The position numbers were made by a program, and so were the translations under genes. From the NCBI GenBank assembly GCA_016219235.1, contig JACRBO010000411.1, forward strand, positions 1-6,373: DNA of 6,373 nt. Reading direction: 5' to 3'. This document shows positions 2,570-4,933 of this stretch, one piece after another. Origin of the DNA: Chloroflexota bacterium. Lineage in GTDB: Bacteria; Chloroflexota; Anaerolineae; Fen-1058. The notes beneath the pieces are model-generated. The model made no database searches. It saw only the letters and a list, made by a program, of their open reading frames with translations, and was not told the DNA's origin. The first letter of the stretch is position 1, and each line of letters opens with the position of its first letter.

Positions 2570-2576
2570 CCTCCTT
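2570..2576 (-). promoter_or_regulatory. Shine-Dalgarno of the 92-aa gene, overlapping the chelatase stop
   Basis: Read on the minus strand this is AAGGAGG, six nt before the ATG at 2563. Two of its bases belong to the TAA stop (2577-2575) of the VWA chelatase frame. Ribosomes finishing the chelatase, which should be only those that changed frame upstream, would terminate on this site, so frameshifting may influence initiation downstream. Confidence 0.75.
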
Positions 2577-3546
2577 ACTGCACTTTCGGATTGTCCAATT
2601 CGTCGCGCACGGTGCGATAGAGCGACTCGGCTTTGAGTTCCTTCAGCGAATAGCAGGGCGATTCAAGCGCGTCGGCCAGCTTCTGCGCCAGCCCTTGATC
2701 GAAGGCCGGATGCTCCATGTTGATGACAACCATGCGAACTTTCAACTTGCAGATTTCGTCGCAGATCTTGTAAGACTCTTCCTGCGCGGGCAGGCCGCTT
2801 TGCGAGACGTTGCCCGCCCCATCGGTCAGGATGATGGCAAGCGGCGCGACATCGGGATGCAGGCGCATCTCTTGCTGCAAGACGATGTGCGTCAGCGTGA
2901 GACCCGCCGATAACGGCGTCTTGCCGCCCACCGGAATATCGCGCAGCGCCTTCTGCGCCAGATCGACCGAATTGGTTGGCGGCAGCACCAGCCGCGCCTG
3001 ATCTTTCTGGAAGACGATCAGTCCCACACGATCGCGGCGTTGATAGGCATCCGTCAGCAGCGACATGATCGCGCCTTTGGTCGCGGCCATGCGCTCGGCC
3101 ACGGCCATCGACCACGAGGCATCGACGACGAACAAGATCAGGTTGGCCGACTTGCGGACGCGCACCTTCTTCTGGTAGTCGTGGCGTTTGACCCGGAAGG
3201 CGGGGCCGTGCAGTTCTTCCAGCTTGCGTTGGTTTTGAAACGGCGCGGCGGCGCGCAGCGTCGCATCAAAGGCGAGGTCTTTGGGGTTGCCGGGGGACGG
3301 TCGGGCCTGGATGTAGCGCCCGCGTTTGCGATCGGTCTTGCTGGTGCTGCGCCGGCCGGCCGCGCGCCGCGTTAGCTTATCGAGCGGCGTGTCCAGCTTG
3401 CGCACGTCAAACGTCTCGCCGATGGGCGTGTTGTCGCCGCCCTCCCACCAGTAGGCGTCTTGATTGCCGGTCGTTTGTGATTTGGTTTTAGCGTCGCTGT
3501 GCCCGAAGTCGGCGTTATCGTTGACTTCGCCTTCCGGGCTTACCGT
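2575..3546 (-). CDS. chlD: ChlD-like C-terminal half (linker plus VWA domain), expressed by -1 frameshift
   Basis: This frame is open from the A-run (first new codon ACG at 3546-3544) to TAA at 2577-2575, 323 residues. The first ~45 residues are an acidic, Asn/Gly-rich linker. They are followed by GETFDVRKLD, basic sequence and then an integrin-I/VWA domain. The metal-ion-dependent adhesion site is complete: DASWSM (Asp, Ser, Ser at 142, 144 and 146 of this segment), Thr in GGKTPLS (210) and Asp in ILTDG (242). In ChlD/BchD and CobT-like subunits this domain docks the AAA+ ring to the large chelatase subunit. No ATG occurs in this frame before the VWA domain. The only plausible independent start is a GTG at 3405-3403 inside the conserved FDVRKLD motif, without a good Shine-Dalgarno sequence. 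I therefore infer it is made as the tail of a ~689-aa fusion with the preceding ChlI-like frame. A one-base sequencing error in the A-run is the main alternative. Confidence 0.85.
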   Translation of the reverse strand, partial: TVSPEGEVNDNADFGHSDAKTKSQTTGNQDAYWWEGGDNTPIGETFDVRKLDTPLDKLTRRAAGRRSTSKTDRKRGRYIQARPSPGNPKDLAFDATLRAAAPFQNQRKLEELHGPAFRVKRHDYQKKVRVRKSANLILFVVDASWSMAVAERMAATKGAIMSLLTDAYQRRDRVGLIVFQKDQARLVLPPTNSVDLAQKALRDIPVGGKTPLSAGLTLTHIVLQQEMRLHPDVAPLAIILTDGAGNVSQSGLPAQEESYKICDEICKLKVRMVVINMEHPAFDQGLAQKLADALESPCYSLKELKAESLYRTVRDELDNPKVQ

Positions 3547-3567
3547 TTTTTTTTGGTGGCGCCCTCT
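3501..3567 (-). promoter_or_regulatory. Probable programmed -1 frameshift (or transcriptional slippage) signal in chlD
   Basis: In mRNA orientation there are three elements. An SD-like AGAGGG (3567-3562) ends 7 nt before nine A's (3554-3546), read as three AAA Lys codons. The zero frame then ends at CGG TAA (3545-3540). Six nt after the A's a hairpin can form: GCCCG (3539-3535) with CGGGC (3505-3501), AAG with CTT, then GCG with CGC, around a 13-nt loop. A competing perfect 7-bp stem, CGAAGTC with GACTTCG, lies in the same place. An SD-like stimulator, an A-rich slip site and a downstream stem are the same components as in dnaX-type -1 frameshifting. The result would be a short ChlI-like product and a long ChlD-like product. 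Insertion of one extra A by RNA polymerase would give the same outcome. Confidence 0.75.
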
Positions 3568-4643
3568 TCGCCCGACTCGTCCATCTCGGCGTCGTCGCCG
3601 CCGGGGAATTCGCTTTCGGCGCGTTCCAGGCGTTCGCTCAAATCCTGCGCCGAGATCGATCCGTCGTCCTGGAACGGTTGACGCTTCAAACGATGTGGCA
3701 AGGCTAGTTCAGCGGCCAGCAAAATGTCGTCGTGCGTGATGTGCGTGCGGCCATGCAGTGCGGCGTGCGCGCGCGCGCCCTTGAGGATCACGATGTCGGC
3801 GCGATGACCGTCGATGCCCAGGCCGCCCACCATGCCCGCGATGGCAGCCAGATCGTGCTGGCGATATTTCACTTCCGGCAGCAGTTTCCGCGCCCGATCG
3901 ATCTCCTGGCTCAACTGCTGCTCGTGCGGTTCCCACTCTGCGCGGAAGCCCTCCGGATCGCTATCGAATTGCAGGGTGCGTTCGAGAATCGCCATGCGCG
4001 CCATTTGATCGTGAATGCCCTGAATATCGACGGCAAACGCAAACCGATCGAGCAGCTGCGGCCGCAGGTCGCCTTCTTCGGGGTTCATCGTGCCGACGAG
4101 GATGAAGCGCGCCGGATGGCTGAACGAGATGCCTTCGCGCTCGACCACGTTGACGCCCATCGCCGCCGAGTCGAGCAGCAGATCGACCACATGATCGTCG
4201 AGCAAGTTCACTTCATCAACGTAGAGCAGGCCGCGATTGGCCGAAGCCAGCACGCCCGGCTCGAAGCGGCGGATGCCCTTCTGGATGGCCTGCTCAATGT
4301 CGAGCGTGCCCACCACGCGATCTTCCGTCGCGCTGACGGGCAGATCGACGAACTTCGTGCGGCGTTTGCTATGCGGTAATTCCTTGCCGTTGCTGGCCGC
4401 GCGCTCGCGGCATTCGGTACACCAGGTCGCGGGTTGATCGGGATCGCAGCCGAAGCGGCAGTCCTGCACCACTTCGATGTCGGGCAACAGCGCCGCCAGC
4501 GCGCGCGCCGCCGTCGACTTGGCCGTGCCGCGTTCGCCGCGGATCAACACGCCGCCGATCTGCGGATAGATGGCATTCAAAACGAGCGCGCGTTTCATGC
4601 GCTCCTGACCAACGATAGCAGTAAACGGGAAGATATTGGGCAT
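3540..4643 (-). CDS. chlD: Magnesium/cobalt chelatase AAA+ subunit (ChlI-like; N-terminal half of ChlD)
   Basis: The zero-frame product is 367 aa from the ATG at 4643 (MPNIFPFTAIVGQE, which matches where ChlI/BchI proteins usually begin). An upstream GTG at 4679, overlapping the previous stop as GTGA, would add 12 residues; a GAGG lies 14 nt before the ATG. From the ATG, Walker A GERGTAKST is at 36-44 and Walker B LLYVDEVNLL at 139-148. Sensor 1 and the arginine region, GTMNPEEGDLRPQLLDRF, are at 184-201, and the sensor-2 type GHRADI at 279-284. A four-Cys insert, CRFGC followed by CTEC (Cys 62, 66, 75 and 78), resembles the insert of cobaltochelatase-type members and may bind metal. ATP hydrolysis by the hexameric ring drives insertion of Mg2+ or Co2+ into a tetrapyrrole by the large subunit. 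Which metal applies cannot be decided here. The protein ends in an acidic tail and KKKR just after the A-run, and its length suits a stand-alone small subunit. The same ribosomes can also shift frame to add the VWA half. Confidence 0.92.
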   Translation of the reverse strand: MPNIFPFTAIVGQERMKRALVLNAIYPQIGGVLIRGERGTAKSTAARALAALLPDIEVVQDCRFGCDPDQPATWCTECRERAASNGKELPHSKRRTKFVDLPVSATEDRVVGTLDIEQAIQKGIRRFEPGVLASANRGLLYVDEVNLLDDHVVDLLLDSAAMGVNVVEREGISFSHPARFILVGTMNPEEGDLRPQLLDRFAFAVDIQGIHDQMARMAILERTLQFDSDPEGFRAEWEPHEQQLSQEIDRARKLLPEVKYRQHDLAAIAGMVGGLGIDGHRADIVILKGARAHAALHGRTHITHDDILLAAELALPHRLKRQPFQDDGSISAQDLSERLERAESEFPGGDDAEMDESGEEGATKKKR

Positions 4644-4675: not shown

Positions 4676-4933
4676 TCACACTGCTGGTTGGGCGGTGCGA
4701 TAGGATTTGTTCATGGCGCGCACGATGGGGCGCGGCAAATCGATCACGACGAAGTAGGCCGCCGGGTACAGATAATCTTCGCCGCTTTCGTCGATGATGC
4801 GCAGATCGCCGTCGGCCACTGCGTCCGCATCCGGCACGACGCGGTAGACCTTATGCAGTTCCAGCGAGGCCGGATACTCGGCATTGTTCACGCAAATAAC
4901 AAAGCGGGGTGTTGATGATTTGCGGGTTGTCAT
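4676..4933 (-). CDS. Small conserved-type hypothetical protein, 85 aa
   Basis: The product starts at the ATG at 4933-4931; only a weak GAG precedes it. A basic N-terminus is followed by RFVICVNNAEYPASLELHKV (residues 10-29) and an acidic segment with IDESGEDYLYPAAYFVVIDL (46-65). The pattern of short strands ending in DESGEDYLYPA.YF looks like a small beta-barrel-type protein, and I recall similar uncharacterised 70-90 aa proteins in many bacteria. No signal peptide, membrane segment or catalytic motif is visible. It starts 7 nt after the stop of the 78-aa gene, and its TGA overlaps a possible GTG start of the chelatase frame by four bases, so it is cotranscribed with the chelatase. A functional link to the chelatase is not shown by the sequence. 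Confidence 0.75.
   Translation of the reverse strand: MTTRKSSTPRFVICVNNAEYPASLELHKVYRVVPDADAVADGDLRIIDESGEDYLYPAAYFVVIDLPRPIVRAMNKSYRTAQPAV

Follow-up and report, generated by a model that had tools for sequence, protein, structure and literature searches.

A conserved A-run recoding site in a chlD-like gene of Chloroflexota, and the run lengths and downstream folds of its relatives

Recoded chlD genes are a published phenomenon, and Chloroflexi are among their hosts (PMC3711429, PMC9227772). A −1 shift was reported for 23 magnesium chelatase genes, including Herpetosiphon, by Antonov and colleagues (2013, PMC3711429), and E. coli cassettes of three chlD sites gave frameshifting of 63% (A11), 40% (A9) and 10% (A7). 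In passages of the same paper, the fused relatives in Chloroflexus aggregans and Rubrobacter are described as fusions of two parts, and poly-A sites in general are said to work possibly in transcription or in translation (PMC3711429). Passages of a later study describe recoded chlD (fs-chlD) genes in Chloroflexi, some of them without B12, chlorophyll or large-subunit genes, and a ribosomal shift at AT-rich slip sites that have RNA structure downstream (Kuznetsov, Milenkin and Antonov 2022, PMC9227772). That nine A's can act in transcription came from dnaX of Thermus thermophilus, and the run length given for slippage by bacterial RNA polymerase is at least nine (PMC5009743, PMC1088944).

Here, we have analysed a chlD-like gene on a 6373-base stretch of DNA (the window) from a Chloroflexota bacterium. 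Its features are as follows, in the coordinates of the window:

3540..4643, minus strand: predicted short ChlI-like product, an AAA+ ATPase of 367 aa with its ATG at 4643
3562..3567, minus strand: SD-like AGAGGG, 7 nt ahead of the A9 run
3546..3554, minus strand: A9 slip run in the codon phase AAA AAA AAA, with an in-frame A_AAA_AAA
3540..3542, minus strand: TAA stop of the 0 frame, two codons past A9
3501..3539, minus strand: predicted hairpin of 39 nt, 6 nt past A9
2575..3546, minus strand: −1 frame of 323 codons and a stop, with the linker and the VWA domain, completing a predicted ChlD-like product of 689 aa

The ChlI-like frame ends in ...ACC AAA AAA AAA CGG TAA, and the −1 frame, entered when one A is re-read, runs to its stop at 2575-2577. 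This bears out the first-pass annotation, which had read A9 and then CGG TAA in the ChlI-like frame, and 323 open codons with linker and VWA domain in the −1 frame. Translation from the ATG at 4643 would yield products of 367 and 689 aa, with KKK-TVSPEG as the predicted junction peptide at A9; a GTG at 4679 is an alternative start of the ChlI-like frame and would add 12 aa. The profile TIGR02442 (putative cobaltochelatase) covers the two halves in order, the ChlI-like part over profile positions 1-349 (4.2e-153) and the −1-frame part over 364-640 (4.4e-78), each alone below the curated whole-protein cut-off, as is the match of TIGR02030 to the ChlI-like part (4.5e-126). The ChlI-like part also matches ChlI of PDB entry 8osf (1.1e-104), and the −1-frame part matches VWA_2 (7.3e-13) and the BchD VWA domain of PDB entry 2x31 (1.2e-18). 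A9 is the sole single-base run of at least seven in the window, and past it the 0 frame closes after 2 codons and the +1 frame after 10. No Rfam match and no tRNA was found in the window, and its minus strand further encodes a protein of 570 aa (119-1831), which has a uridine kinase/phosphoribulokinase domain and, at its N-terminus, a weak match to threonyl-tRNA synthetase, and a small retropepsin-like aspartyl protease (Asp_protease_2; 1924-2451).

With a ChlI-like frame, an overlapping frame that carries the linker and VWA domain, and a −1 shift at a conserved A-run with an in-frame A_AAA_AAR, the locus belongs among the fs-chlD genes; its host is of a Thermoflexales-like lineage within Chloroflexota. 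As the first-pass annotation had noted, the basic phenomenon is already published, and the locus is one more recoded chlD gene.

The conservation of the site was followed by a genome-contig scan with the N-terminal part of the window's product as query, which confirmed at least 499 relatives, the best 80 of which were kept as L001-L080. Of these 80 loci, 65 have the VWA part in the −1 frame and one in the +1 frame, and in 14 it shares a single frame with the ChlI-like part. A run of A7-A10 is present at the junction in 78 of the 80, all 78 with an in-frame A_AAA_AA[A/G]; the −1 break falls at such a run in 64, the 65th (L072) being a −1 gene without a run. The nearest loci of the 80, L001 and L002, come from other MAG assemblies of the window's lineage (99% and 98% protein identity) and have exactly A9 at the same place, and A9 is also shared by L003-L005. 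The junction A9 exceeds chance expectation in L001-L080: exact nine-base runs of A or T number 60 in 1,075,551 bases of these loci, and 58 of the 80 have A9 at the junction; likewise there are 5 ten-base runs, and 5 junctions with A10. Over 599 nt of the C-terminal part, the window and L001 differ 25 times at third, 5 times at first and never at second codon positions of the −1 frame, and in the first 150 nt past the run third-position changes dominate in each of L001-L005. Because these substitutions follow the codon positions of the −1 frame, we take the −1 frame to be translated from the A-run onward. The relatives thus bear out the earlier claim of one chlD gene with a conserved −1 recoding site for ChlI-like and ChlD-like products; given the frames and their conservation, both proteins are probably produced.

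To compare the sites more widely, 106 loci from the class of genome G001 were added, giving 186, of which 180 were distinct after removal of 6 duplicates (L139, which has no C-terminal part, was dropped). The added loci were the fused loci and the high-scoring split loci of the class, and the proportion of fused genes in this set of 180 should therefore not be taken as their prevalence. Split −1 genes have A9 in 96 cases, A10 in 4, A8 in 6, A7 in 15 and no run in 2; both split +1 genes have A10; fused genes have A9 in 25 cases, A10 in 6, A8 in 2, A7 in 9, A6 in 2 and no run in 11. The two split −1 genes without an A-run are L072 and L152, and their slip site, if any, is of another kind.

Structural prediction downstream of the run separates the sites by run length. 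The fold was scored twice, in one 55-nt window and as the best of three 45-nt windows, the latter being used for the class counts, and a fold was called strong when it ranked within the best 10% of its own gene, a limit of our own choosing. Strong folds occur at 22 of 24 A7 sites, 2 of 8 A8 sites, 8 of 121 A9 sites and 2 of 12 A10 sites (fold percentiles of A7-8 versus A9+, P 3e-10 with relatedness ignored). The main stems of A7 sites start 5-10 nt downstream, and L100 and L118 are the only A7 sites without a strong fold. GC content does not explain the link between A7 and folding, because the contrast persists among genes above 60% GC (21/23 A7 versus 6/76 A9+). Tree-aware comparison points the same way in 2.5 and the opposite way in 0 of 3 independent pairs for A7, and in 2.4 and 0.4 of 6 pairs for A7-8; with pairs this few, neither result is significant.

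At A9 sites the runs themselves are longer than a ribosomal heptamer would require. In codon phase 1, the base past the minimal A8 is A in 60 of 67 cases (own-gene background 0.20), and this A occurs in nine different codons for five amino acids. In codon phase 2, the bases past the minimal A7 are AA in 48 of 72 cases (background 0.05), G in 24 and A followed by another base in none; the binomial values for run extension ignore relatedness, the state changing 5 and 6 times on the tree. This pattern suggests to us that selection keeps runs at nine or more whatever the codon phase, beyond what a codon-phased heptamer would need. At runs of minimal length (e.g. L049, L187, L143), the next base is always G (phase 2, 24/24; phase 1, 7/7).

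Fused relatives are common, since a protein search (120 matches listed of 7998 scored) listed only near full-length single-frame relatives of 665-735 aa and 64-72% identity. Among the listed TIGR02442 matches of the class, a full-length single frame was counted in 54 of 361 genomes; one of the 54 (G033) is cut, and some are paralogs near 55% identity. The fused genes mostly keep the site. All 42 with a run of at least seven (L006, L007, L009, L011-L013, L018, L019, L025, L030, L033, L035, L059 and 29 further loci) have a −1 stop within 1-10 codons of it, rounded down, and the own-gene chance of so close a −1 stop is 0.03-0.20 per locus in the 13 tested, which makes any one case no more than moderately unlikely. 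By this analysis, 42/42 could make the same protein pair in reverse, as dnaX does. These fused genes with a run resemble ordinary full-length chlD and yet are predicted to yield a short ChlI-like product.

The closing frames of the fused genes also differ between run lengths. Both other frames are closed within 10 codons in 22 of 31 fused A9+ genes and in 0 of 9 fused A7 genes, where only the −1 frame is closed (9/9); limits of 8 or 12 codons give 20/31 or 23/31 and 0/9 or 1/9. For the +1 stop, the comparison of A7 with A9+ is not significant by percentile (P 0.11), and a plain count gives P 2.6e-7 with relatedness ignored; the fused A7 loci belong mostly to one Thermoflexus clade. In split loci, the 0 and +1 frames are closed within 10 codons at 88 of 101 A9+ sites (window included) and 7 of 15 A7 sites. 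On a FastTree tree of 180 rows, from which L072 was omitted as too short, the fused or split state changes 22 times, at least 12 of these by well supported branches. Other slip motifs were sought in the two A6 fused loci, ten of the eleven run-less fused loci, L152, L053 and L072; L094 carries two heptamers in frame, followed by −1 stops at 3 and 6 codons, and in the others nothing convincing was found. Seven fused, run-less loci (L094, L096, L101, L112, L113, L133 and L053) have a single TIGR02442 match (E up to 1e-60) per genome.

The first-pass annotation had proposed that the AGAGGG 7 nt upstream and the hairpin 6 nt downstream stimulate the shift. Their placement stands, and the spacings resemble those of E. 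coli dnaX, but that both of them matter as stimulators is not borne out. The SD-like match is within the best 4% of positions in its own gene, while the hairpin (MFE −17.9 kcal/mol, 50-nt window) is only within the best 18%. AGAGGG becomes AGAAGG in L001, L002, L004 and L005, four of the five closest loci listed, and in L003 the nearest SD-like element lies ∼16 nt from the run, so the SD-like hexamer is not conserved in L001-L005. The A-run is kept among orthologues; in the five closest loci a hairpin is predicted again with similar energy but is unexceptional within their own genes, ranking at 13-41% by the first scoring, and L003 alone enters the best 10% by the second. Because the arms of the hairpin are formed by codons of peptides that are themselves conserved (PEG and DFG), the persistence of the fold cannot be counted as independent evidence.

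How the frame may be changed at this site is suggested by the two classes. The default reading would give the 367-aa ChlI-like AAA+ ATPase, and a −1 change of frame at A9 would give the 689-aa ChlD-like protein, with the same AAA+ part, the linker and the VWA domain. We argue that in the window's branch run length rather than stimulators may drive the site: RNA polymerase would slip on A9 and produce mixed mRNAs, those with one extra A encoding the long protein, and ribosomal slippage on A_AAA_AAA could contribute too. The A7 relatives with strong hairpins probably rely on the ribosome. We infer polymerase slippage because the A9 class keeps runs of at least nine, matching the published run length for slippage of the bacterial enzyme, and because stops close to the nine A's of the window end the frames that do not lead to the long product, as in Thermus. 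For the A9 class, window included, transcriptional slippage would fit at least as well as ribosomal frameshifting. Taken whole, namely polymerase slippage at A9, the ribosome at A7 and an I/D motor acting without a large subunit, this is the explanation towards which we lean, by a modest balance of the evidence.

Classical ribosomal −1 frameshifting, in which A_AAA_AAA slips with the help of AGAGGG and the hairpin as in E. coli dnaX, is a serious possibility that we nevertheless doubt for this site. It is the published reading of fs-chlD in the passages of PMC9227772, and the E. coli run-length series suits it as well as it suits the polymerase. Phase-2 A9 sites contain two overlapping heptamers, and an in-frame A_AAA_AA[A/G] is found in 78/78 loci with a run among the best 80 of at least 499. 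The SD-like element and hairpin of the window lie at dnaX-like distances, the rank of the former in the best 4% of the gene favours the ribosome, and most A7 relatives have clear hairpins with main stems from 5-10 nt downstream. Against the ribosomal reading stand the poor conservation of AGAGGG in L001-L005, the ordinary rank of the hairpin in the five closest loci (13-41% of own gene; L003 in the best 10% only by the second scoring), the scarcity of strong folds in the A9 class (8/121) and A9 runs that exceed what the heptamer requires. What the first-pass annotation had said of slippage holds for −1 recoding; it had considered only the ribosome as the slipping machine, where either the ribosome or RNA polymerase may slip.

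A question that the relatives make directly testable is why a cell should need an I-type and a D-type protein from one gene when these relatives are without a large chelatase subunit. The large subunit (CobN/ChlH) was judged from the genomes of relatives, mostly MAGs, in which absence from any single genome is weak. Neither CobN/ChlH nor CbiC was found in the genomes of the five closest relatives. Across the genomes of the best 80 of at least 499 loci, a PF02514 large subunit is over the cut-off in 6, with a seventh, weak match below it in G035, and CbiC is present in 1 (G055). Since both are rare among these genomes and absent in the five closest, the two proteins most likely have a role outside B12 and chlorophyll synthesis, to judge by gene content. 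The 367- and 689-aa proteins would probably form an I/D-type ATPase motor that acts without CobN/ChlH. Gene neighbourhood offers no functional lead in L001-L080: the commonest neighbour families, represented by an S1-domain protein and an M19 peptidase, occur at 18 loci each, and neither includes a gene of the window (the count leaves aside chlD itself and the opposite-strand frames overlapping it, taken as shadow frames). As to a separate small-subunit gene, among the five closest genomes a second TIGR02030 match above 40 bits is absent in G002 and G004, and one of 179-259 bits is present in each of G001, G003 and G005. Of 396 genomes in the class, 361 have TIGR02442 matches at E up to 1e-60, a count that takes in paralogs.

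That one chlD gene supplies the cobaltochelatase subunits for B12 is, in our view, unlikely. Antonov (2020) reportedly proposed small and medium chelatase subunits from one gene for genomes with cobN. In keeping with this, the two halves of the gene match TIGR02442, a putative cobaltochelatase, in order, and a CobN was typed in G074, one of the 80 genomes (the other typed large subunit is a BchH, in G014). The earlier view of the host as a cobalamin producer is nevertheless not supported by the large subunit, over the cut-off in 6/80 related genomes and in 0/5 of the closest, or by CbiC, present in 1/80 (best 80 of at least 499 loci). Moreover, in all six large-subunit genomes a separate BchI over the TIGR02030 cut-off shares its contig with a large-subunit match, as expected of bacteriochlorophyll gene clusters, and fs-chlD in Chloroflexi without B12, chlorophyll or large-subunit genes is reported in passages of PMC9227772. 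In G049, G055, G056, G062 and G074, fs-chlD stands alongside a separate BchI and a large subunit, and the corresponding loci L049, L055, L056, L062 and L074 are all A7 sites with a strong fold.

Assembly error, a decaying gene, or phase variation through replication slippage of the A-run is very improbable. Comparison of the 42 fused loci gave four fused/split sister pairs with similar ungapped flanks and runs 1-2 A's apart, which means that changes of run length occur or are misread; two of the four involve +1 loci, and in the pair L107/L151 the flanks are only 63-75% alike. However, A9 is found in the window, in two other assemblies of the lineage and in 121 of the 180 distinct loci (both architectures), and intact domains under purifying selection lie on either side of the run. 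From the sequences compared, we conclude that the A9 site is neither an assembly error nor a pseudogene. Least credible of all is termination and re-initiation with the C-terminal part as a separate protein from an internal start, for although the TAA sits where the two frames overlap, the C frame contains a GTG at 3405 (149 nt past the run start) and the first C-frame ATG/GTG of 121 split loci with a run is at a median of 69 nt, the window has no ATG, GTG or TTG in the C frame ahead of GTG 3405, a start codon between −30 and +45 nt from the slip is seen in only 20/121 split loci, and the stretch ahead of GTG 3405 evolves as −1-frame protein, so that a start 149 nt downstream is no explanation of a frame translated from the run on.

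Extended to the class of G001, polymerase slippage at A9 and ribosomal slippage at A7 would make a chlD-like gene read by two machines, the polymerase mostly on A9 and the ribosome on A7 with a hairpin, whose polarity flipped often while the pair was kept and whose motor works outside B12 and chlorophyll; this wider proposal is conceivable and we put it forward tentatively. A literature search over titles, abstract openings and passages, to which Antonov 2020 did not belong, returned no apparent description of inverted polarity or transcriptional slippage in chlD. Relative to those parts of the literature cited here, the finding that orthologous sites fall into two forms, A9 lacking strong folds and A7 carrying hairpins, together with the repeated change of polarity, is apparently new. 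The relatives make it testable whether orthologous recoding sites can swap transcriptional and ribosomal slippage, and which run length decides between polymerase and ribosome. It also follows that fused genes resembling plain chlD may conceal a short second product.

Set beside the systems described in passages of the cited papers, the locus shares with published fs-chlD genes a ChlI-like 0 frame, a VWA domain in the −1 frame and an A-run slip site, Chloroflexi examples included. It differs in that the window's site is A9 without conserved stimulators, whereas the sites in PMC9227772 have downstream RNA structure; and published fused chlD genes are described as fusions, whereas the fused relatives here mostly keep the run and a close −1 stop. 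With dnaX of T. thermophilus it has in common a run of nine A's, early closure of the frames that do not lead to the long product, and two products with the same N-terminus. The window would however need an extra base for its long product, the reverse of Thermus. The A_AAA_AA[A/G] of E. coli dnaX, as far as passages of PMC3711429 and PMC5009743 describe it, is found in the window too, but the window's clade is without conserved stimulators and its 0-frame product is the short one. It is the A7 fused loci, mostly Thermoflexus, that share the polarity of E. coli dnaX. The fused forms resemble both dnaX systems as these passages present them, those with A9 or more the T. thermophilus gene, where the polymerase slips, and those with A7 the E. 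coli gene, where the ribosome does.
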